A stretch of DNA of 22,776 nucleotides from a virus: positions 18,443 to 41,218 of the IMG/VR virus record IMGVR_UViG_3300030110_004245. One strand, written 5' to 3'. This document shows positions 895 through 19,900 of this stretch, in pieces. Below the pieces are notes generated by a model. It ran no database searches. It worked only from the letters and a program-made list of their open reading frames with translations, and was not told the origin of the DNA. Every line of letters begins with the position of its first letter. Position 1 is the stretch's first letter. A program made the position numbers and the translations under genes.

Positions 895-2583
895 ATGTCA
901 GGATGGGTATACGGACCGGGTGGGGGCACAACGTCACCGGGCGGCAACGATAAAGAAGTACAATTCAATAATAACGGTTCATTTAGTGGCTCTGCCTTAC
1001 TAATCACGGATGGCTCTGGGTCCCTATCGGCATCCGTGAATATATCAGCTTCTGCTTTTTATGGTGACGGTTCAAATTTAACAGGACTCACGGCGTCTGC
1101 TGTTAACGTAGCAGATGGTCCTGAGTATTCTATTCAATTTAGGAGAGACTCCCCTATAACAGGAGAGATCTCGGGCTCTGCCAACCTCAAGGTTAGCTCT
1201 GACACCACAAATCTTTTTATGTCAGGCACCACATTCCTTTCAGCCTCTGCAGCTGACGGACAAGATATTTTTGTTGGCTCGGGAACAGCCCGAACCATAG
1301 GAACTTTGATTGATGGCAGCGACGACTTCTTTGTGATGGGTCACGACGGTGGCGCTGTCACATTATCAGCCTCATCCGGTATTGAGCTTATTGGTGGGTC
1401 TGAAGGTGTTGGCTCCTTCGGGTCTGATATCAAAGTTTATACTACACAGGCTGGCACTACAACCGCCATATCGCTAGCCAACTCTGGCGATATTTCAGGC
1501 TCTGGAAATATCTCAGGCTCAAACTTCTACTTAAAACCTGGAAAATCTATTTTCTTCGATGGCAATACAGAAACCTTTAAGATTGCCAATAACGGTACCA
1601 ACTTAGATATTAATGGAGCTAATATTATATTAAATGCTGCAACGCAAGTTTCAGCATCCTCTAACCTTTCTGCTTCTAATTTATATTCAACCACTCTTAA
1701 TCTTACAAGTGATGCGATTATTGAGGGTCAAGTAAAAGTTGGCCCCGGTACAGGCGTGGGATATGTAGCCTCTAACGGAGATCCCGACACAAGAATCAGG
1801 TTTGGCGCGGCTGGTAGAGGCTCCGATTCGATATCGATTGAAGCTGGTGGTAAATCTTTTATCATTCTTGATGAGAATGGACTTGATGAGCTTATTTTAG
1901 GTGCTGCCTCTAGCGATGTAGTCTTTGTTTCTGGATCATTAACAGCATCAGTTGGTATGAGGGTATCCGCGTCGGCTGCTAACGGTGAAGATATATTTGT
2001 TGGCTCTGGAACAGTCCGAACGATAGGAACTTTGCAAGATGGTGGTGATGACTTTTTCGTCATGGGTCACGACGCCGGTAGTATTACGTTGTCTGCTTCA
2101 TCTGGTGTTGAGTTTGTCGCCAATCCGTCTGAAGGTGTGAAATCCTTCGGTGCCCCAATCACTATTTTTGATGACCAAGCTGGCACTAATTCCGTTATAT
2201 CATTGTCAAAAGGAGGCAACATATCTGGCTCCAATGGCTTAATTGCCAAAGGTAAGGTCACTTTTGGTGTTTCTGCTGAACAAACCATGAACTTCAGTGC
2301 TTCTGCTGGTGATTTCCGAACATATATTGTTAACTCTACAGGATCTGTGATTACTGGGTCTCTTCCTGGGGTTGCGTCACATGCTGACATAGGCTTGACT
2401 TACACTTTTAAAGACATTGCCGGCTCTGGATCAACCAACAATGTGGTTGTATCACCTTCGGGCTCGCAAAAGATTGATGGCGCCGCACAGGCCAAGATAC
2501 AAACTGATTATGGAGCACTAACTGTAACAGCATTCTCCTCATCAAAGGGCGGCTTTGGCTGGGGAATTGTTTCAACAACATAA
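895..2583 (+). CDS. Repeat-rich tail fibre-like structural protein
   Basis: 562 residues. The ATG at 895 follows AGGAGAAG at a normal distance. The N-terminal region has KEVQFNNNGSFSGSA, a motif type common near the N-terminus of phage fibre proteins, with a degenerate second copy soon after (SIQF...SGSANL). FYGDGSNLTGLTAS follows, also typical of fibre proteins of marine phages. Two long copies of a module of about 87 residues lie at residues 116-202 and 358-445, each with DIFVGSGT, RTIGTL and DDFFVMGHD. Ser/Gly-rich ISGSxNISGS linkers join the modules. The C-terminus (KIDGAAQ...WGIV) resembles that of the preceding protein. A fibre or decoration role is inferred; the exact location on the virion is not known. 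Confidence 0.65.
   Translation: MSGWVYGPGGGTTSPGGNDKEVQFNNNGSFSGSALLITDGSGSLSASVNISASAFYGDGSNLTGLTASAVNVADGPEYSIQFRRDSPITGEISGSANLKVSSDTTNLFMSGTTFLSASAADGQDIFVGSGTARTIGTLIDGSDDFFVMGHDGGAVTLSASSGIELIGGSEGVGSFGSDIKVYTTQAGTTTAISLANSGDISGSGNISGSNFYLKPGKSIFFDGNTETFKIANNGTNLDINGANIILNAATQVSASSNLSASNLYSTTLNLTSDAIIEGQVKVGPGTGVGYVASNGDPDTRIRFGAAGRGSDSISIEAGGKSFIILDENGLDELILGAASSDVVFVSGSLTASVGMRVSASAANGEDIFVGSGTVRTIGTLQDGGDDFFVMGHDAGSITLSASSGVEFVANPSEGVKSFGAPITIFDDQAGTNSVISLSKGGNISGSNGLIAKGKVTFGVSAEQTMNFSASAGDFRTYIVNSTGSVITGSLPGVASHADIGLTYTFKDIAGSGSTNNVVVSPSGSQKIDGAAQAKIQTDYGALTVTAFSSSKGGFGWGIVSTT
1240..1500 (+). repeat. Fibre module, copy A
   Basis: Direct in-frame duplication of the segment at 1966-2229 within the same gene. 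The two copies share most residues over about 87 positions, including DIFVGSGT, RTIGTL and DDFFVMGHD, while the DNA has diverged mainly at third codon positions. This indicates an old duplication kept under protein-level selection. Confidence 0.85.
1966..2229 (+). repeat. Fibre module, copy B
   Basis: Second copy of the module at 1240-1500, one codon longer. The region between the copies (about 1501-1965) is not part of the repeat and has its own Ser/Asn-rich beta-type sequence. Confidence 0.85.
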
Positions 2584-2595
2584 AGGTATTATAAG

Positions 2596-3345
2596 ATGGC
2601 ATTAGTATTAGAGAATGGTATTTGGTTATTACAGTCCGGCGGCAGTAATGTCACAGCTGTTGCTCAGACCAAGGTTCCTGCAGCTGGAACCCCGTCGAGT
2701 ATCGCAGATGGAGCTACGCTAGACGCCGGGATGCTAAGTGGATGGACTGTTAAAGATCCAAATGGAGTTTTTAATGCTATGGTGGATGATGGCACTACAT
2801 TTAATGTCAAATTCGATCAGGGAGACGGAGGCACCTCAACACCTTCTAATGGCAATGGCATCTTAACCAATGGACGTATTATATACCCTAACCTTCTTAT
2901 GGGTGATTTTGATCTATCCATATATGTTGACCAAGGTGCAAGTGCCGAGAATGTAAACACAGAGATAGCTTTGATGGCTGGCGGCGGCAATGCGACGGGT
3001 GAAGCTCACTGGCTGGGACATAGATATGGAAGATGGAACGCAGCCAACGCTAAATACTATGGGATAGGCGCCTGGGCATCCGGTGGACTTACACACAACG
3101 GAACTCAGAATGTGTCTAGAACTACAGCAAGGTGGGTCGGTCTAAAGCGCGTCAGCCAGACAGTTTCGTTCCGCGAAGGCGGTACGGCGGCAACTCCAAG
3201 TTGGTCCGACACCGACAAACAGTGGGATGCGGGAGGAGGCGCTGTGTCGATCGGAATATCATTCTTTGCTGGTTCCGCATCAGAGGAAACTTACAGACTT
3301 TATAAAGTCATACTTAACGGCTCCGAGTATACAGCTACCCCATAA
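2596..3345 (+). CDS. Putative lectin-like appendage protein
   Basis: 249 residues, starting 12 bases after the preceding stop, with a weak ribosome site (AAAGG). The first about 75 residues are low-complexity and may form an attachment segment. From about residue 85 the pattern of alternating beta-type strands (FDLSIYVDQ, TEIALMAGG, YYGIGAW, RWVGLKRV, TVSFREGG, ISIG-like, YRLYKVILNG) looks like a concanavalin/LamG-type beta sandwich, as often seen in sugar-binding tips of phage tails. I recognise no specific family and no catalytic residues, so the lectin reading is inference. Its place after two fibre-like genes supports a receptor-binding or fibre-tip role. Confidence 0.4.
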   Translation: MALVLENGIWLLQSGGSNVTAVAQTKVPAAGTPSSIADGATLDAGMLSGWTVKDPNGVFNAMVDDGTTFNVKFDQGDGGTSTPSNGNGILTNGRIIYPNLLMGDFDLSIYVDQGASAENVNTEIALMAGGGNATGEAHWLGHRYGRWNAANAKYYGIGAWASGGLTHNGTQNVSRTTARWVGLKRVSQTVSFREGGTAATPSWSDTDKQWDAGGGAVSIGISFFAGSASEETYRLYKVILNGSEYTATP

Positions 3346-3429
3346 TCGAACTTTTGTTGTTATACAGTCGACCGCACTAACTTTACGCTTCTTAAATAAA
3401 ACTGTTTTCGTCATTTAGAGAAATAAAAC

Positions 3430-11570: not shown

Positions 11571-12146
11571 ATGGCCTTTTGGACAAGCGCACTTTCAGAA
11601 CCTAAGAGACAACACAGATTTATTTTGAGATTCCCGGAGCTTATCACGCCGGATGGAGACTTTGCGTACGCCGAGTATTTGGCCAAGTCTGTTACAAAGC
11701 CCTCCTACACAGTTGGCGAGACATCGCACAAGTTTTTAGGGAACACATATTACTACCCAGGCGCGGTCACATGGAATGAATGCACAGCGACTATTGTTAA
11801 CTCCGTCTCGCCAGATGGTAACGAGCTTCTTTATCAGGCACTCCAGCAGATGGGTTATCTAAAGCCTGACGTTCAGGAAGATGTTTTCCTACAGAACCTT
11901 CCAGCCTCAACGCCGAACAAGCAGGCTGCGCTAGCAGCGCTTGGTCAGGTTCAGTTTGACGAGCTTTCTGGAGAAGGTGGTACACTTGGAACTTGGAAGT
12001 TGCAGAATGCTTTTATTACAAATGTAACTTTCGGTGATTTAGATTACGCAGGCGAGGAACTTCTAGATATTACAATCCAGATGCGTTACGACTGGGCAAC
12101 TTATGACGTAGGTCCAGCAACTAGAGCTTTAGCAAACATTCGATAA
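11571..12146 (+). CDS. Tail tube protein (gp19-like)
   Basis: 191 residues; ATG preceded by AGGAG. It starts FWTSALSEPKRQHRFILRF, a typical opening of gp19-type tube subunits, has SYTVGETSHKFLG and YYYPGAVTWNECTATI in the middle, and ends DITIQMRYDWATYD. These are beta strands of the tube fold that stacks as hexameric rings to make the DNA channel inside the sheath. T4 gp19 has 163 residues; the extra about 25 are mostly at residues 95-135. It directly follows the sheath gene, as in T4. Confidence 0.88.
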   Translation: MAFWTSALSEPKRQHRFILRFPELITPDGDFAYAEYLAKSVTKPSYTVGETSHKFLGNTYYYPGAVTWNECTATIVNSVSPDGNELLYQALQQMGYLKPDVQEDVFLQNLPASTPNKQAALAALGQVQFDELSGEGGTLGTWKLQNAFITNVTFGDLDYAGEELLDITIQMRYDWATYDVGPATRALANIR

Positions 12147-12165
12147 AAGAAAGAGACGGTGATTT

Positions 12166-13020
12166 TTGAGTAGAAATTCAAACAGACAAGGGGCGCCTGA
12201 TGTGCCCCCGCCACCACAACAGCAACTACCAGAACAATTTCAACAAAACTTATTTTCCTTCCCGGTCCCAACGGAGTTCGTTGAACTTCCAAGTAAGGGA
12301 CTGTTTTATGGTGAAGGACACCCACTTCATAAAGTAGAAACAATTGAAATTAAACACATGACAGCAAAAGAGGAAGATATCCTCTCCTCCGAAGCGCTGA
12401 TTAAAAAGGGCGTCGTTATGGATAAGCTTTTGCGCTCTGTTTTGGTGGATGATAACATTAACCCTTCATCGCTTTTGATTGGCGATAAAAACGCTATTAT
12501 TATGTCCGTCCGAGAGACAGGCTTTGGTCCATTGTATGGAACAAGCGTAAATTGTCCTTCTTGCGGGCACCTGAACGAAAAAGAGTTTTCTCTACAAGAG
12601 AGAGAAATTAAAGAATCTAATTTGCTCGAAAATGTGCAACTTCTGGACAACGGCAACTTTTTGCTTACGGCTAACGAGTATAACCCAGAGATTACTTTTG
12701 AAATCAAATTACTGACCGGTCATGATGAACAGAAAATCAGCAAGTATGTCGAAGGAAGACGAAAGCTTAAGATGGAAGTTGGTACTGTTACAGAACTTTT
12801 GAAGAACATCCTTGTATCTGTTAATGGCATCTCACAGCCGAGCGCTTTGCAGGAGGTCATAAATCAGATTCCAGTCAATCTATCAAGAAAAATTCGTAAA
12901 GCTTACGAAGAGGCAATGCCAAACATTCAACTAAAAGCCGATTTTAATTGCGACAACTGCTCCCACATAGAGCGAATGGAGGTGCCGATTAATATCGACT
13001 TTTTTTGGCCTAAACTCTGA
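12166..13020 (+). CDS. gp26-like baseplate/tail assembly protein, zinc-ribbon type
   Basis: 284 residues from TTG at 12166. This is the first possible start, because TGA at 12160-12162 lies just upstream in frame. Its ribosome site is weak (GAGACGG). A Pro/Gln-rich tail (residues 10-30) precedes the conserved LPSKGLFY (41-48) and MTAKEEDILSS (65-75), which I associate with the T4 gp26 baseplate family. Two CxxCxH pairs at residues 130-135 and 262-267 should bind one zinc ion. T4 gp26 (208 residues) is needed for baseplate hub assembly. The gene ends with seven T (13000-13006) and stops at 13018-13020. The coding continues in another frame (see next entries), so this is probably the short form of a tail assembly chaperone pair acting on the tape measure. 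Confidence 0.75.
   Translation: MSRNSNRQGAPDVPPPPQQQLPEQFQQNLFSFPVPTEFVELPSKGLFYGEGHPLHKVETIEIKHMTAKEEDILSSEALIKKGVVMDKLLRSVLVDDNINPSSLLIGDKNAIIMSVRETGFGPLYGTSVNCPSCGHLNEKEFSLQEREIKESNLLENVQLLDNGNFLLTANEYNPEITFEIKLLTGHDEQKISKYVEGRRKLKMEVGTVTELLKNILVSVNGISQPSALQEVINQIPVNLSRKIRKAYEEAMPNIQLKADFNCDNCSHIERMEVPINIDFFWPKL
13000..13006 (+). other. Probable programmed frameshift site (seven T)
   Basis: In the zero frame the run reads TTT TTT T(GG), five codons before the stop. Phe-tRNA on the second TTT (13003-13005) can re-pair perfectly on TTT one base later, giving a +1 shift to GGC at 13007; a -2 slip gives the same frame. A -1 shift meets a stop almost at once (TAA at 13011-13013). Polymerase slippage on the T run, or a sequencing error in it, would look the same. 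Confidence 0.6.
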
Positions 13021-13195
13021 TTATCAAGCAACTTTATACGAAGAGTTCTTTATTTTAAAGCAGCATGGAAATTGGTCTTTTGCTGAGGCTTATTCGCTTC
13101 CCACTGGATTACGGCGCTGGTTCTTGGATCGACTCGTAAAACATTTTGATGAGAAGAAGGCTGCAGAAGAGAAAGCTATGTCGGGCGCACGATAA
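13007..13195 (+). CDS. Frameshift-expressed C-terminal extension of the gp26-like chaperone
   Basis: In frame +1 relative to the gp26-like gene, codons are open from 12971 to TAA at 13193-13195. No ATG, GTG or TTG occurs in this frame before TTG at 13124. The 62 residues after the shift read like a real domain: LYEEFFILKQHGNWSFAEAY, then LPTGLRRWFLDRLVKHF and a charged tail. The pattern of a short helical domain with a tyr-x-leu-pro-x-x-leu-arg motif is the type seen in second-frame products of tail assembly chaperones that recruit the tape measure. With a shift after Phe280 the long form would be about 342 residues. It is also possible that the gene is translated independently from an unusual start. 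A terminator follows at once. Confidence 0.7.
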   Translation, partial: GLNSDYQATLYEEFFILKQHGNWSFAEAYSLPTGLRRWFLDRLVKHFDEKKAAEEKAMSGAR

Positions 13196-13211
13196 GTGCG
13201 CCTTTTTCTTT
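13184..13211 (+). terminator. Intrinsic terminator after the chaperone genes
   Basis: Stem GGCGCAC (13184-13190) pairs with GTGCGCC (13196-13202) around loop GATAA, followed by TTTTTCTTT. The stop codon of the frameshift extension lies in the loop. Six bases later comes another promoter-like motif. Confidence 0.9.
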
Positions 13212-13216
13212 ATGCT

Positions 13217-13225
13217 ACTATTTAA
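13217..13225 (+). promoter_or_regulatory. Promoter-like motif ACTATTTAA, copy 6
   Basis: Follows the intrinsic terminator and lies 28 bases before the ATG at 13245. It would start the unit holding the tape measure, baseplate genes and polymerase, as no further copy was seen downstream. Confidence 0.55.
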
Positions 13226-13244
13226 TTAGAAGAGGTGTTCCCAC

Positions 13245-13562
13245 ATGAGCAAAGATGAGATTGTTATTGATTTAACGGATAAGTCCCTTAATGAGAGGCT
13301 TTATACAGATTTTTCTTATAAGGTCAACCGATTGTTGCTGGATTTATATGACGCCGGCGTAAATATTAACCCCACTATTAGAGGGACACAAGCTCAGATT
13401 GAGTCGTTCTTTAAAGCTCTTCGGGGCGAGAAGAGGTATATGGATTCTTATATAAGACACGGACTGAGCGACTCTAGAACCATGACGAACAGAAGAGACT
13501 TAGATAGAGCAGTCTCTGGATTTGAGAAAGAAACAGGCTTACGGTGGCCGTTTAAGAACTAG
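13245..13562 (+). CDS. Small protein before tape measure, unknown function
   Basis: 105 residues; ATG preceded by AGAGGTG. I do not recognise the family. It has an acidic start, a helical stretch (YKVNRLLLDLYDAGVNI), then FFKALRGEKRYMDSYIRHGL, and a basic end (NRRDLDRAV, LRWPFKN). No membrane segment or signal peptide. It lies between the chaperone pair and the tape measure, 11 bases before the latter's start, so a role in tail assembly is likely but only inferred from position. Confidence 0.7.
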   Translation: MSKDEIVIDLTDKSLNERLYTDFSYKVNRLLLDLYDAGVNINPTIRGTQAQIESFFKALRGEKRYMDSYIRHGLSDSRTMTNRRDLDRAVSGFEKETGLRWPFKN

Positions 13563-13573
13563 GCGGCTAAGCA

Positions 13574-15772
13574 ATGTCTGAAATTACAGATCTCACAGCA
13601 GCAGTTAACAGACTCACGGCACAATTGCAGGGTCAAGGCACCGCTGGTGGTCAAACGCCTGAGCAAATCGAAGCTAAAAGAAAAGCCGCCGAAAAGTTTT
13701 ACAAGTTAGAAAGAGAAACTCTTAAAAGCAAAAAAGAACTTGCAGCTCTGGATTCAAAATATCAAAAAGAGCAACTTGACTTTTACAGGAAACAAGCTGT
13801 AGCTATTGGCGAAGGAAACGAAGGTTACGAAGAAGCTATTGGGCGCGCCAAAGAACTTTCGGATTCAAATCAAAAACTAGAACGCAGCACAAAAAACCTG
13901 AATGCCGAGTTTGAAAAGGGTGCAGCCGAAGCTGACAACCTAGCTAACAGTTTCCTTAAGCTTGACAAAGAAGGCGCCAAGTTCTTCCAAACTATTGGCG
14001 CCTCGCCTCGGAGGTTAGCTGGATTCGTTACTGGTCTTGGTAAAGCAGTAATAACAGGAGATTTGTTTGTAAAAACTTTCCAAAAGGTAATTGGCAACTC
14101 TATTAATTTTGCTTTCGAACTTGATAGGCAAAACGCTGCCTTTAAGAGGTCAACGGGCGCCGGAAATGAATACGCAAGTTCTATTGCAAATGCTGGACTA
14201 GCCTTCGCAGCTTACGGAATAAATGTTGAAGATGCCGGTGCAGCCGCACAAGATTTATTTTCTAATTTCCGTGATTTTACAAATCTTTCCGAGAGTGAGA
14301 GAACCAATGTCATTGCCACAACCGCAACGTTAAAACAGTTTGGCGTTTCTGCGACTACGACCGCCACGATTCTTGATCAAGCAACAAAGTCTTTATACAT
14401 GAATACTCAAGAAGCCGAGCTTCTAACTAGACAAGCCGCAACATTGGCGATAGACATAGGAAAACCATTAACAGAAGTTGCGGGAGACTTAGCATCTGCA
14501 GGTCCAAAATTGGCTTTTTACGGCAAGCAAATGTTTGATGTGTTCGCACAGTTAGAAAGACAATCAAAGGCTACGGGCTTGTCGGTCGATTCTTTGCTTG
14601 GCTTGGTTGGTGAGAAGTTCGATACCTTTGAAGGCGCAGGACAAGCTGTAGGGCGCCTCAACGCCATCCTGGGCGGACCATACCTTAACTCCATTGATAT
14701 GTTGAACGCCTCTGAGGCTGACCGTCTTGAAATGATTAAAGAAGCTATTGAGGCCGGCGGTGTTCAATTTGATCAATTGAACAAGTTTGAGCAAAAAGCA
14801 TTTGCATCTGCCATGGGAACTGATGTTGATACTCTTCGTAGGTCTTTAAACGAGCTAGATCCAGAAGTTCAACTACAAGCGCTACAGCAAGAAGAGTTGG
14901 CAAAGCGCGCCGGCGATGCTCGCTCCATAATGGAAAAACTAACCGATGCAATCAATTCGCTGATTATTTCTTTTGCTCCTTTAATAACCAGCGTATCTGA
15001 GGGTATAAATAAGTTCTCTGATTTTGTACAGAAAGTAAATGAAGGCAAAGCCAGCTTTATGGATATAGAGTTTGGTGTTGGGAAACTAGCCCTGGCGCTG
15101 GGGGGTCTAGGGCTTGCACTCAAAGCTGTAGGGTTCTTATTTAGTCCTTTTATGCGTTTGCCTAGTTTACTAAGAAGATCGACAGGAGAGATGTCAGGCT
15201 TGGCTTCCCAAACTGGACGAGCTGCCGGCGCAGCCGGTAAGTTCAGTCGCTTCGCCCGCGGAGGCGCATTTGGTCTAGCTGCTGGAGCAACAGGTTACGC
15301 CACCGCAAAGGGTGTTGATTATTTTAAATCGAAAGGACAAACCGGGGCAGCGCAAGCAACATCTATTGGCGGCAGTGTTGCTACCGGCGCCTTGACCGGT
15401 GCTGCTATCGGATCATTTATACCCGTCATCGGTACTGGAATTGGCGCATTGGTTGGAGGTGCAATCGGCGGCGCGGCAGGCGTTAGCAGTGCTACAAAGA
15501 TTCAGGATGGCGAGATAAAAATGGTTCAGTTCAGCAACCAAGATACATTTGAAAGAGTCGCTGACGGCGTCGTCGCTGCTAAGCCAGACGGAACTTTGGA
15601 TAAGGCGATTAGGGAATCTGTTGAAAAACAGACCGCTGTCCTTGTTGAGGCTATACAAAACGCGATGAATGTACAGGTTCAGGTCGGTGACCAGCAATTA
15701 GGTGATGTTGTTGTCAAAGCTATGAACTCTACAAGAGGAAGAAATTCAATTTCCCCATTTTACGAGGGATAG
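13574..15772 (+). CDS. Tail tape measure protein
   Basis: 732 residues. It sets tail length and is threaded through the tube. Residues 1-130 are charged and strongly helical, with coiled-coil heptads. The middle is Ala-rich helical sequence. A hydrophobic stretch (LALALGGLGLALKAVGFLF) lies at about residues 506-524. A glycine-zipper segment at about residues 599-636 (GALTGAAIGSFIPVIGTGIG and on) could insert in the host membrane during DNA entry, as proposed for other tape measures. T4 gp29 has 590 residues, so by length this tail would be longer, roughly in proportion. Position after chaperone genes and before hub genes is classic. Family identity is from composition and order, not from one diagnostic motif. 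Confidence 0.82.
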   Translation: MSEITDLTAAVNRLTAQLQGQGTAGGQTPEQIEAKRKAAEKFYKLERETLKSKKELAALDSKYQKEQLDFYRKQAVAIGEGNEGYEEAIGRAKELSDSNQKLERSTKNLNAEFEKGAAEADNLANSFLKLDKEGAKFFQTIGASPRRLAGFVTGLGKAVITGDLFVKTFQKVIGNSINFAFELDRQNAAFKRSTGAGNEYASSIANAGLAFAAYGINVEDAGAAAQDLFSNFRDFTNLSESERTNVIATTATLKQFGVSATTTATILDQATKSLYMNTQEAELLTRQAATLAIDIGKPLTEVAGDLASAGPKLAFYGKQMFDVFAQLERQSKATGLSVDSLLGLVGEKFDTFEGAGQAVGRLNAILGGPYLNSIDMLNASEADRLEMIKEAIEAGGVQFDQLNKFEQKAFASAMGTDVDTLRRSLNELDPEVQLQALQQEELAKRAGDARSIMEKLTDAINSLIISFAPLITSVSEGINKFSDFVQKVNEGKASFMDIEFGVGKLALALGGLGLALKAVGFLFSPFMRLPSLLRRSTGEMSGLASQTGRAAGAAGKFSRFARGGAFGLAAGATGYATAKGVDYFKSKGQTGAAQATSIGGSVATGALTGAAIGSFIPVIGTGIGALVGGAIGGAAGVSSATKIQDGEIKMVQFSNQDTFERVADGVVAAKPDGTLDKAIRESVEKQTAVLVEAIQNAMNVQVQVGDQQLGDVVVKAMNSTRGRNSISPFYEG

Positions 15773-16971: not shown

Positions 16972-19900
16972 ATGACACAGCCCAATAACATTAAACAAGC
17001 AGTTGATTTTTTGATTAACAACAAAATTATAGAAAATATATGTCAATCATATGTCTATGAATACTTGTCTTCTGGTGGGGCTGCCCCCGAGGGTGTAGAC
17101 CCAGCTGTGTGGGCTGATAAACTCAATACACTTCTGGAGGCTTATAAGAATGATCCTGATTTTGCGTTCTTAAAAGAAACTTATACAGACGAAGAGACCG
17201 GTGAGGAGGTTACGGAATACAAACGGGTGGACAACACCAAAGAAGCCTATGATAATTTCGTAAAAAACCAATTTACTCTGCACACAAATACGGTTGCTTC
17301 TAACACCTACAAGTCGATAAGGAAACTTTTTACAACTGAACTTGGAAAGTCCGTTTTGTACACAATTCTACAAAACGCAAATGAAGTCTTCCGAGATCCT
17401 AGACTTAATCCAAGGGAGGATGTAGCGAATATTGAAGCTGCCAATCTCGGTGGCGCGGTAGACAAGCCAGTGTTAGACTGGCCAACTGCTGGAATGACAC
17501 TAAATTTACAAAGCGAAGGCATTTATTTGTTCTTTCTGTTTGTGTATCAAACAGGGTGGTTCACAAAAGATTATACAGAAAACTTACCTGTAAAACTTGG
17601 CGCAACTTCGCTGCCAGATGATAGGGCTGAACTAGGTGATCGTTTTGCGGGCGTCCTTAATCCCATCTACTTCCCGTACATGGTACCAGACGGCGCGCCA
17701 GTTTACGAGACGAAGACTGTAAGAAACCCAGGGTCCGTTCGAGACGGTATACCCCCTTCCACTAGGGAGGTTACAAAACTAACAGAAAACACTGAGCTTG
17801 TTGGTATCCCTGCAGGGGGAACTTTCGGTCCTGCAGATGTTGAAATATCATATATGTCTAATGCCGGCACAATTGAAGTCAAAACAAGAGAAGAGCTTGA
17901 AAGTGAAGGTTATGATTTTAGAGGTCTTACCGGCGGATTGTACGACGAAAGACCCGGGCAGCCTTTTGCGGGAAACATTTTATTTTATAATGGCGGTGAT
18001 GAAGTCCGACAAGCGCGCGGACCTATATTCGAAGCTATATACGGTTGGAATGAAGATGTAATAACCTCTATAGCCACCTTATATCCAAGCGTAACTTGGT
18101 CAGTCTTTAAGTCAGTTTTATTAGATTTTGTTGGAGAAGTTGACAAAAATATTAAGCAGGCCGAAGGGATACTAGGCGCTGATGAGGGTGACGTCAGAAC
18201 ACCCTTCACTAAAAAAGTGGTTAGAACACCGAAGAAAGAAGCCCTGAAGCCAGTCGATCATCAGTGCTATTTGTTGGAAAACATTAGAGTTTTAACTGAG
18301 TATAAAGATAGCGTTATTGCGGGTGGTGTGGAAAAATATGAGAATATCAGCACGATATATAACAGTACACAAGGAAAGAATTCACTCCCGGGCAACTTGA
18401 TTTCGTATATTAATCATGCAGACAAAACTGACGAAGTAAACGCTCTTTTAAACTTATGTCCGGAGGTGTACGCTCTACTAACGCCACATATTAAAATATA
18501 TCGCGTCGAATATGAAGGTGAAAATAAGTTAATTCCTACACTTCAACAGGAAATACCATTTCCAAACTTCATAGACCCGTCGGACATTCAGGCTATTATG
18601 AATAATGATTATGGTCGATTCCCAGGCGCCGGCATTAAATCGTTTTCTTGGAATTTAGATGGTGTAAACCCAGCAGAGGTTGATAATAACATAAGCGCCC
18701 GATTGGACTTACATTTCCAAACAATTCAAGATCTGTTCTCGTTAAACCAGGGGCTAGCTGCAGGACAGGCGAAGCCCGGGTATCTAGATCTTATCATCAA
18801 GTCTGCAAGGCAACGATCCAACAAATCTGGGGGGGGAACTGCTCTCAACGAGCAGGCCGCGGCAGCCCCTATCTCGACAGAATGTTTTGAAGCTACGATG
18901 ATGGAGTATGATCCAAGAGATTTTGAAATCAAAGCGTGCGTAGGGTGGTCAACGCCAGCAAATTTCTCAAACATTATAAATGATTTGCAATCCTCTAGAG
19001 ATAAGGGACCGGACTACGGGATAAATCTTGAAGCTGCGATCAACGAGACAAGAGTTGGGCTATACTTAACCCTGACCACCCACGAACTAAACTTTAATGA
19101 AAATGGCTCTGTTGATCTGAGTGTAAACTACCAAGCAAGATTGTCTGGACTGGCAAGATCCCCAGCAGCAAACATATTTTCTGGGGGCACGGAATTGTCC
19201 CGGCAACTAAAACAGATTAATGAAAAGCTTAAAGAAAAAAATAAAAGAATAAGTGAAAGAACCAATGCGTACGATCCAGAAAATCGAACGCTAGCACTAG
19301 AAGATGATGCGATAAATGATTTGAGAAGAGATAAAGAAGATCTTCTTGAGGAAAAAGTTAAGCTCACAAAGCAAAGCAAAGCGATTAAGTACAAAAGGTT
19401 CTTGAACAAGTTGTACAACGATCAAAAAATATACACTTATGTGGTACCAGCCTCTGAAAGAATTCTTTTCAAAAACATGACACCTGAGGAAAGAGCAAAG
19501 AAAGCTGCAACCAGAGTGGCGTCTAACGAATATCAAGTTGGTTGGGAAGCGCAGTCTGATTCAGGCGCAGCAGCAGCAATATATGATTCAGCTGCAAAAC
19601 AAATTAGCGAAATTAGTAAATCTGAAGAAAGCGACGAGGTCTTGTCTGAAGAAGCCAAGGCTAAAGGTGCGGTCTCAAACTTTAATTTGAGGACAGCCGC
19701 GAGCAAAACAAACACAGACTTGAAGATTCCATTTTTTTATTTGGGCGATCTGCTAGATGCTGTTCTGGAACATATTGATATTATTGTCGACAAAGAAGGT
19801 GACCGAGGAAGTTTTCAACTAATTCTGTCTCAGGTTGAGTTGTTGGATCCGCTCCTGGCTTACCAGATCGAATCAGTCAAGATTCAGTGTCCGGACAACA

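Follow-up and report, generated by a model that had tools for sequence, protein, structure and literature searches.

Why should a protein domain under selection begin without a start codon, immediately behind a phage gene that already has its own stop? The question arises from a 22,776-nucleotide stretch of viral DNA (positions 18,443 to 41,218 of IMG/VR record IMGVR_UViG_3300030110_004245; hereafter the window), in which a gp26-like gene ends close to a run of seven T and is followed by an open frame lacking a start. The original prediction was that the two are joined by a programmed +1 or -2 ribosomal frameshift, giving products of 284 and about 342 residues, and that this would tie the T4 gp26 family to the general system of tail assembly chaperones. 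Our comparative analysis strongly supports the frameshift, narrows its direction to +1, and carries the tie to the chaperone system further than was proposed; the event itself, its rate and the chaperone function remain inferences.

The gp26-like gene and the frame that follows it

The gp26-like ORF (12166-13020, + strand, as are all features of the window described here) has a TTG start, encodes 284 aa and ends GAC TTT TTT TGG CCT AAA CTC TGA, with the seven T at 13000-13006. Its product matches PF12322 (T4_baseplate) over residues 56-281 with 53.1 bits, above the gathering cut-off of 24.5, and phrog_150 (baseplate hub) with E 3.7e-14. A second frame is open for 74 codons from 12971 to 13195, and its first ATG, GTG or TTG lies at +106 from the gp26 stop, that is, at 13124. 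If ribosomes pass from one frame to the other at the slip site TTT [TTT] TGG (13000-13008; P-site UUU at 13003-13005, A-site UGG at 13006-13008, re-pairing to UUU at 13004-13006), the extension begins with GGC at 13007, comprises 62 aa (13007-13192; stop TAA at 13193-13195), and the long product would be 280 + 62 = 342 aa, as originally predicted. A tail tube gene lies upstream (11571-12146; phrog_4542, E 1.3e-18). Downstream, a 105-aa ORF (13245-13562), for which no family was found in Pfam or PHROGs below E 0.1, precedes a 732-aa ORF (13574-15772) that is presumed on grounds of position to be the tape measure gene: its own best PHROG hits are families of unknown function, with one tape measure family only at E 0.19. 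A hairpin resembling an intrinsic terminator, with an 8-pair stem (6 GC) and a T run, overlaps the end of the extension (13183-13207), so that the extension seems to close the gp26 transcript, although this is one of 5 terminator-like sites in 12100-13700 against a mean of 1.7 in shuffled sequences.

If the arrangement reflects a programmed frameshift, then both the frame relation and the slip site should be conserved among relatives. To test this we searched viral contigs, found 327 relatives and retained the best 80; in 76 of these the extension is readable (in four the contig ends too early), and it lies in the +1 frame in 76 of 76. The junction reads TTY TTT TGG CCN in all, with TTT as the first codon in 72 and TTC in 4. 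Among 40 representatives sharing less than 90% nucleotide identity, the P-site codon is TTT in 40 of 40, whereas Phe elsewhere in the same genes is TTT 260 times and TTC 112 times: the probability of this arising by chance is about 6e-7. A second, more distant set of 100 loci – not dereplicated, and possibly sharing contigs with the first – gave 93 readable loci (7 were too short), of which 91 have the extension in the +1 frame. In these 91 the P-site codon is again TTT in every case (Phe elsewhere TTT 681, TTC 206), the preceding codon is TTT in 74, TTC in 14 and CTT in 3, and the A-site codon is TGG in 89 and TAC in 2. The two exceptions (loci L207 and L212) carry the domain as a separate gene with its own ATG, a longer N-terminus and a stop before it, and their junctions read TTC TTG TAT and TTC CTT TGG: the site is thus gone where it is not needed. 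Of four loci from MAGs, three are readable and all three are +1.

A further prediction concerns selection on the extension. In ten representatives of the window's clade, the 34 codons between the gp26 stop and the first possible start of the window lineage show a median dN of 0.084 and a median dS of 1.459 (45 pairs; the ratio of sums is 0.40, dS being near saturation), and differences by codon position over +4..+160 are 446/201/1150; the extension is under purifying selection from the gp26 stop onward. The prediction that start codons should be absent is fulfilled only in part: from the upstream stop to 12 codons past the site no start codon exists in 28 of 76 loci (14 of 40 representatives), the window's sequence among them, but 34 of 76 have one within those 12 codons and 40 of 76 have one upstream of the site.

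We then examined 13 records of named phages taken from 40 matches, in which some records appear more than once. Reading by eye, nine have the following open frame at +1: immuto (TTT CTT TGG), LR756508 (TTT CTA), Mel-JY01 and RM378 (TTT TTT TGG), GXN1 (TTC TTT CGT), BRock (TTT CGC), SP-15 (TTT TTT CAC), LIS04 (TTT TTT AGT) and Alone3 (TTT CAG), the exact slip codon in LR756508 and LIS04 being our reading. Four – LR756511, Atu_ph07, PA5oct and RAS14 – have it at -1 with T TTT TTC or T TTT TTT. Of the latter only LR756511 matches the +1 extension profile strongly (25.1 bits; PA5oct 10.8, RAS14 9.6, Atu_ph07 4.0), while in RM378 the open +1 frame (3159-3374 of the extracted locus) does not resemble the domain (0.8 bits). 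In immuto and LIS04 the pair lies between tube-type and tape measure genes, but in the stretches seen of RM378, Atu_ph07, PA5oct, RAS14 and the cyanophage S-MbCM100 the gene is not next to annotated tube and tape measure genes. Scans with the SP-15 and Atu_ph07 proteins returned only those phages themselves, and a tblastn of the BRock protein against plasmids found nothing.

Direction of the shift and alternative explanations

According to the explanation we favor, and hold with high confidence, most ribosomes read TTT TTT TGG CCT AAA CTC to the stop and make the 284-aa short form, while some pause with the Trp codon UGG in the A site: the P-site tRNA-Phe slides one base from UUU to the overlapping UUU and translation continues GGC CTA into a helical domain, giving the 342-aa long form. 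No protein or reporter data bear on this. A -2 shift, as appears to occur in phage Mu, would reach the same frame, and all-T sites, CTT TTT TGG and TTT CTT TGG allow it about as well as +1. However, at TTC TTT TGG (18 of 167 loci), at TTC TTT CGT (GXN1) and at CTG TTT C (BRock, Alone3) a -2 move places UCU or UGU under tRNA-Phe, whereas a +1 move gives UUU or UUC; a -2 shift is therefore unlikely. A Shine-Dalgarno-like GGAGGTG (12978-12984) lies 18 nt before the P-site codon, and its conservation is evident from codon usage: GAG is used in 31 of 32 Glu codons at this position (8 of 40 representatives have another residue) against 351 GAG to 530 GAA elsewhere, and an SD-like 6-mer is present within the 40 nt upstream in 33 of 40 representatives, its first base at -25 in 28. 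The motif may slow the ribosome, and one so far upstream could pull it backwards, but the spacing is probably greater than in known SD-stimulated shifts and unlike that of release factor 2. Downstream, no clear conserved RNA structure was found by comparison with mononucleotide shuffles (8 of 40 +1 loci below z -2, median -0.5; for the -1 loci described below, 15 of 48 distinct loci below -2, median -1.16).

The start codons present in some relatives leave room for a different view, in which the extension is a separate small protein made by termination-reinitiation at or after the gp26 stop: a start often occurs at +7 from that stop, and in L207 and L212 the domain is indeed a separate gene. 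Yet 28 of 76 loci lack any start in the relevant interval, a Tyr just before the +7 position is nearly invariant (in 90% or more of 49 aligned extensions), and the P-site TTT is invariant except in the two loci with a separate gene, where it is lost; we consider reinitiation improbable. Transcriptional slippage on the T run, which may be long enough to permit it, is less likely still, since the 18 loci with TTC TTT TGG have only four T in a row and immuto has TTT CTT TGG. Finally, although homopolymers are prone to sequencing and assembly error, 167 loci share the frame offset, including sites without a long T run: these exclude both slippage and homopolymer errors as general explanations, and an error in an otherwise continuous gene is in effect refuted by the relatives.

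T4 gp26 and gp51, and the marine T4-like phages

T4 has been described as the exception to frameshifting of the G/GT kind, and yet it carries two PF12322 proteins. T4 gp26 matches the family over residues 1-206 of 208 and gp51 over residues 1-201 of 249, leaving a 48-residue tail; gp26 ends EFFELL, and the gp51 tail begins just after the corresponding place, which is where the extension joins in the window. T4 and six of six further gp51-bearing phages have two PF12322 copies, whereas S-MbCM100 and each of 13 other phage records have one (11 of the 13 by PF12322; immuto and Mel-JY01 only by our own alignment A1), although a divergent copy could be missed, since that alignment did not find the T4 copies.

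Direct comparison of window-type extensions with gp51 is weak: profile matches to T4 gp51 are near noise (5.3 bits), a shallow hhalign gave E 0.023 for the domain and 0.0015 for the full length, and the PHROG alignment of the window's long form stops at 239 of 282, before the gp51 tail. The link runs instead through marine phages. A T4-type gp26 found in a MAG (locus L099) ends AGT TTT TTT TCA TAG and is followed by a gp51-like domain in the -1 frame. Of 82 such loci (80 from a further search, L099 and S-MbCM100), 78 are readable, and a profile of seven T4-type gp51 C-termini scores best in the -1 frame in 78 of 78; among 54 distinct loci the -1 frame scores 21.3-49.4 bits and the +1 frame of the same loci at most 0.8. 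An in-frame T TTT TTN is present in 78 of 78 (TTTTTTA 48, TTTTTTT 23, TTTTTTC 6, TTTTTTG 1), and 64 of 78 have no ATG, GTG or TTG from the upstream stop to 10 codons past the gp26 stop. The profile of these extensions hits 7 of 7 gp51 C-termini (13.0-33.3 bits, at most 1 of 16000 shuffles as high) and aligns with the +1 extension profile over 57 columns (hhalign 97.1%, E 7.7e-11, a pairwise and not a database E-value). Against single +1 extensions it is mixed: 9.9 bits for L001 (identical to the window here), 18.7 for L095 (one of the MAG loci), and about noise for immuto, LR756508 and L097, another MAG locus.

The two parts of the long form were folded separately: the extension alone is predicted as three helices (pLDDT 89; residues 6-23, 27-31 and 35-63 of the 64-residue model) and has no PDB fold match, and its BFVD matches are all above E 0.1, although 'Gp51' of P-HM1 (53 aa) ranks fourth (E 0.33, TM 0.73 by target) and a Klebsiella 'baseplate protein' sixth. 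The short protein is predicted well (pLDDT 88, pTM 0.81), and its best match among re-aligned PDB chains is the HK97 tail assembly chaperone (2ob9_B; Z 5.8, rmsd 6.0, 90 residues, next Z 4.3; Foldseek E 2.3), which is weak and suggestive only. Sequence searches of the PDB found no convincing relative: four unrelated chains at E 0.037 or more for alignment A1, and none for T4 gp51.

Both T4 proteins are listed as hub assembly chaperones, and gp51 as needed but absent from the particle (PMC3004832), but the same paper cites genetic evidence that the hub contains gp26, so gp26 may be structural. Cyanophage and marine vibriophage gp51 have been noted to lack about the first 200 residues while the C-terminus is similar (PMC3037559); the overlap would explain this, although that the annotated short gp51 is this domain rests on the description and on the weak fold match to P-HM1 Gp51.

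Related systems and the origin of the long form

In phage lambda, gpG and gpGT are likewise a short and a C-terminally extended form from one gene near the tape measure gene, but lambda shifts -1, and the protein family here is PF12322. A +1 chaperone shift is not new in itself, being called very likely in the myovirus HSTV-2 (PMC5009743). By analogy with lambda we infer that the common N-terminal part binds the tape measure protein and that the C-terminal domain recruits the tube protein. The slip resembles that of release factor 2 (CUU_UGA; PMC10274946) and of influenza PA-X (UCC_UUU_CGU; PMC5009743), in which the P-site tRNA slides one base over CUU U or UUU N, and the UUC UUU CGU of GXN1 is close to the PA-X site; here, however, a sense codon, mostly UGG, waits in the A site.

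A more distant relationship is suggested by contractile injection systems. Of 49 window-type extensions, 28 hit PF20546 (DUF6760) at E up to 1 (best 6.3e-4), and no other family is hit by more than 2; the window's extension scores 13.5 bits (E 0.077) against a cut-off of 27, and is probably related at a distance but not a member. Conversely, the +1 profile hits 9 of 9 DUF6760 domains at 14.2-22.2 bits, with 0 of 16500 shuffles as high. We looked at nine such loci, four of which (L110, L111, L112, L114) are annotated with tail sheath genes, the others being assigned by likeness. In all nine, DUF6760 is in the -1 frame relative to the upstream short tail assembly gene, and in eight (L101, L110, L111, L113, L114, L218, L219, L220) a run of five or six G sits near the end of that gene; the ninth, Haloferax (L112), has an ATG overlap. 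L101, L110, L111 and L220 have no ATG, GTG or TTG in the open frame near the domain start (L111 has one 423 nt upstream; L110 and L111 have a TTG inside the domain). In three further loci (L102 and L103, both at 871-1626 and both over the PF12322 cut-off, and L115, match 2501-3181, found by tblastn with L102) a gp26-like protein and a DUF6760-like domain are fused in one frame, the joint falling at the FF (FV in L115) that marks the slip site elsewhere. These systems probably use the same pair with a programmed -1 shift, but the evidence is nine loci and should be regarded as a lead.

Taken further, it is probable, though less secure than the frameshift itself, that the whole T4 superfamily, together with contractile injection systems carrying DUF6760, builds its tubes with one ancient short/long chaperone pair, and that only the way of making the long form has changed: a +1 shift at UUU_U, a -1 shift at U_UUU_UUN, a -1 shift at a G run, in-frame fusion, a separate gene or, in T4, gene duplication into gp26 and gp51. 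No report of a frameshift in gp26/gp51 or in DUF6760 was met among the titles and opening lines of abstracts returned by our literature searches (papers consulted beyond these, in addition to those cited above, were PMC5122674, PMC9024508, PMC12282133 and PMC11821841), nor was the consequence for T4. Annotation misses the extension: it is absent from S-MbCM100 (2185-2364 of the extracted locus) and LIS04 (2230-2459), and in Mel-JY01, immuto, SP-15 and BRock it is annotated as a small hypothetical protein, in the last three from an internal start.

T4, then, probably makes from duplicate genes the same pair that its frameshifting relatives make from one: gp26 would be the short form and gp51 the long form, the T4 GT protein, which would also account for the short cyanophage gp51. 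Since the direction of the shift differs (+1 or -1) at one place within one gene family, these loci offer a natural series for studying how recoding sites evolve.
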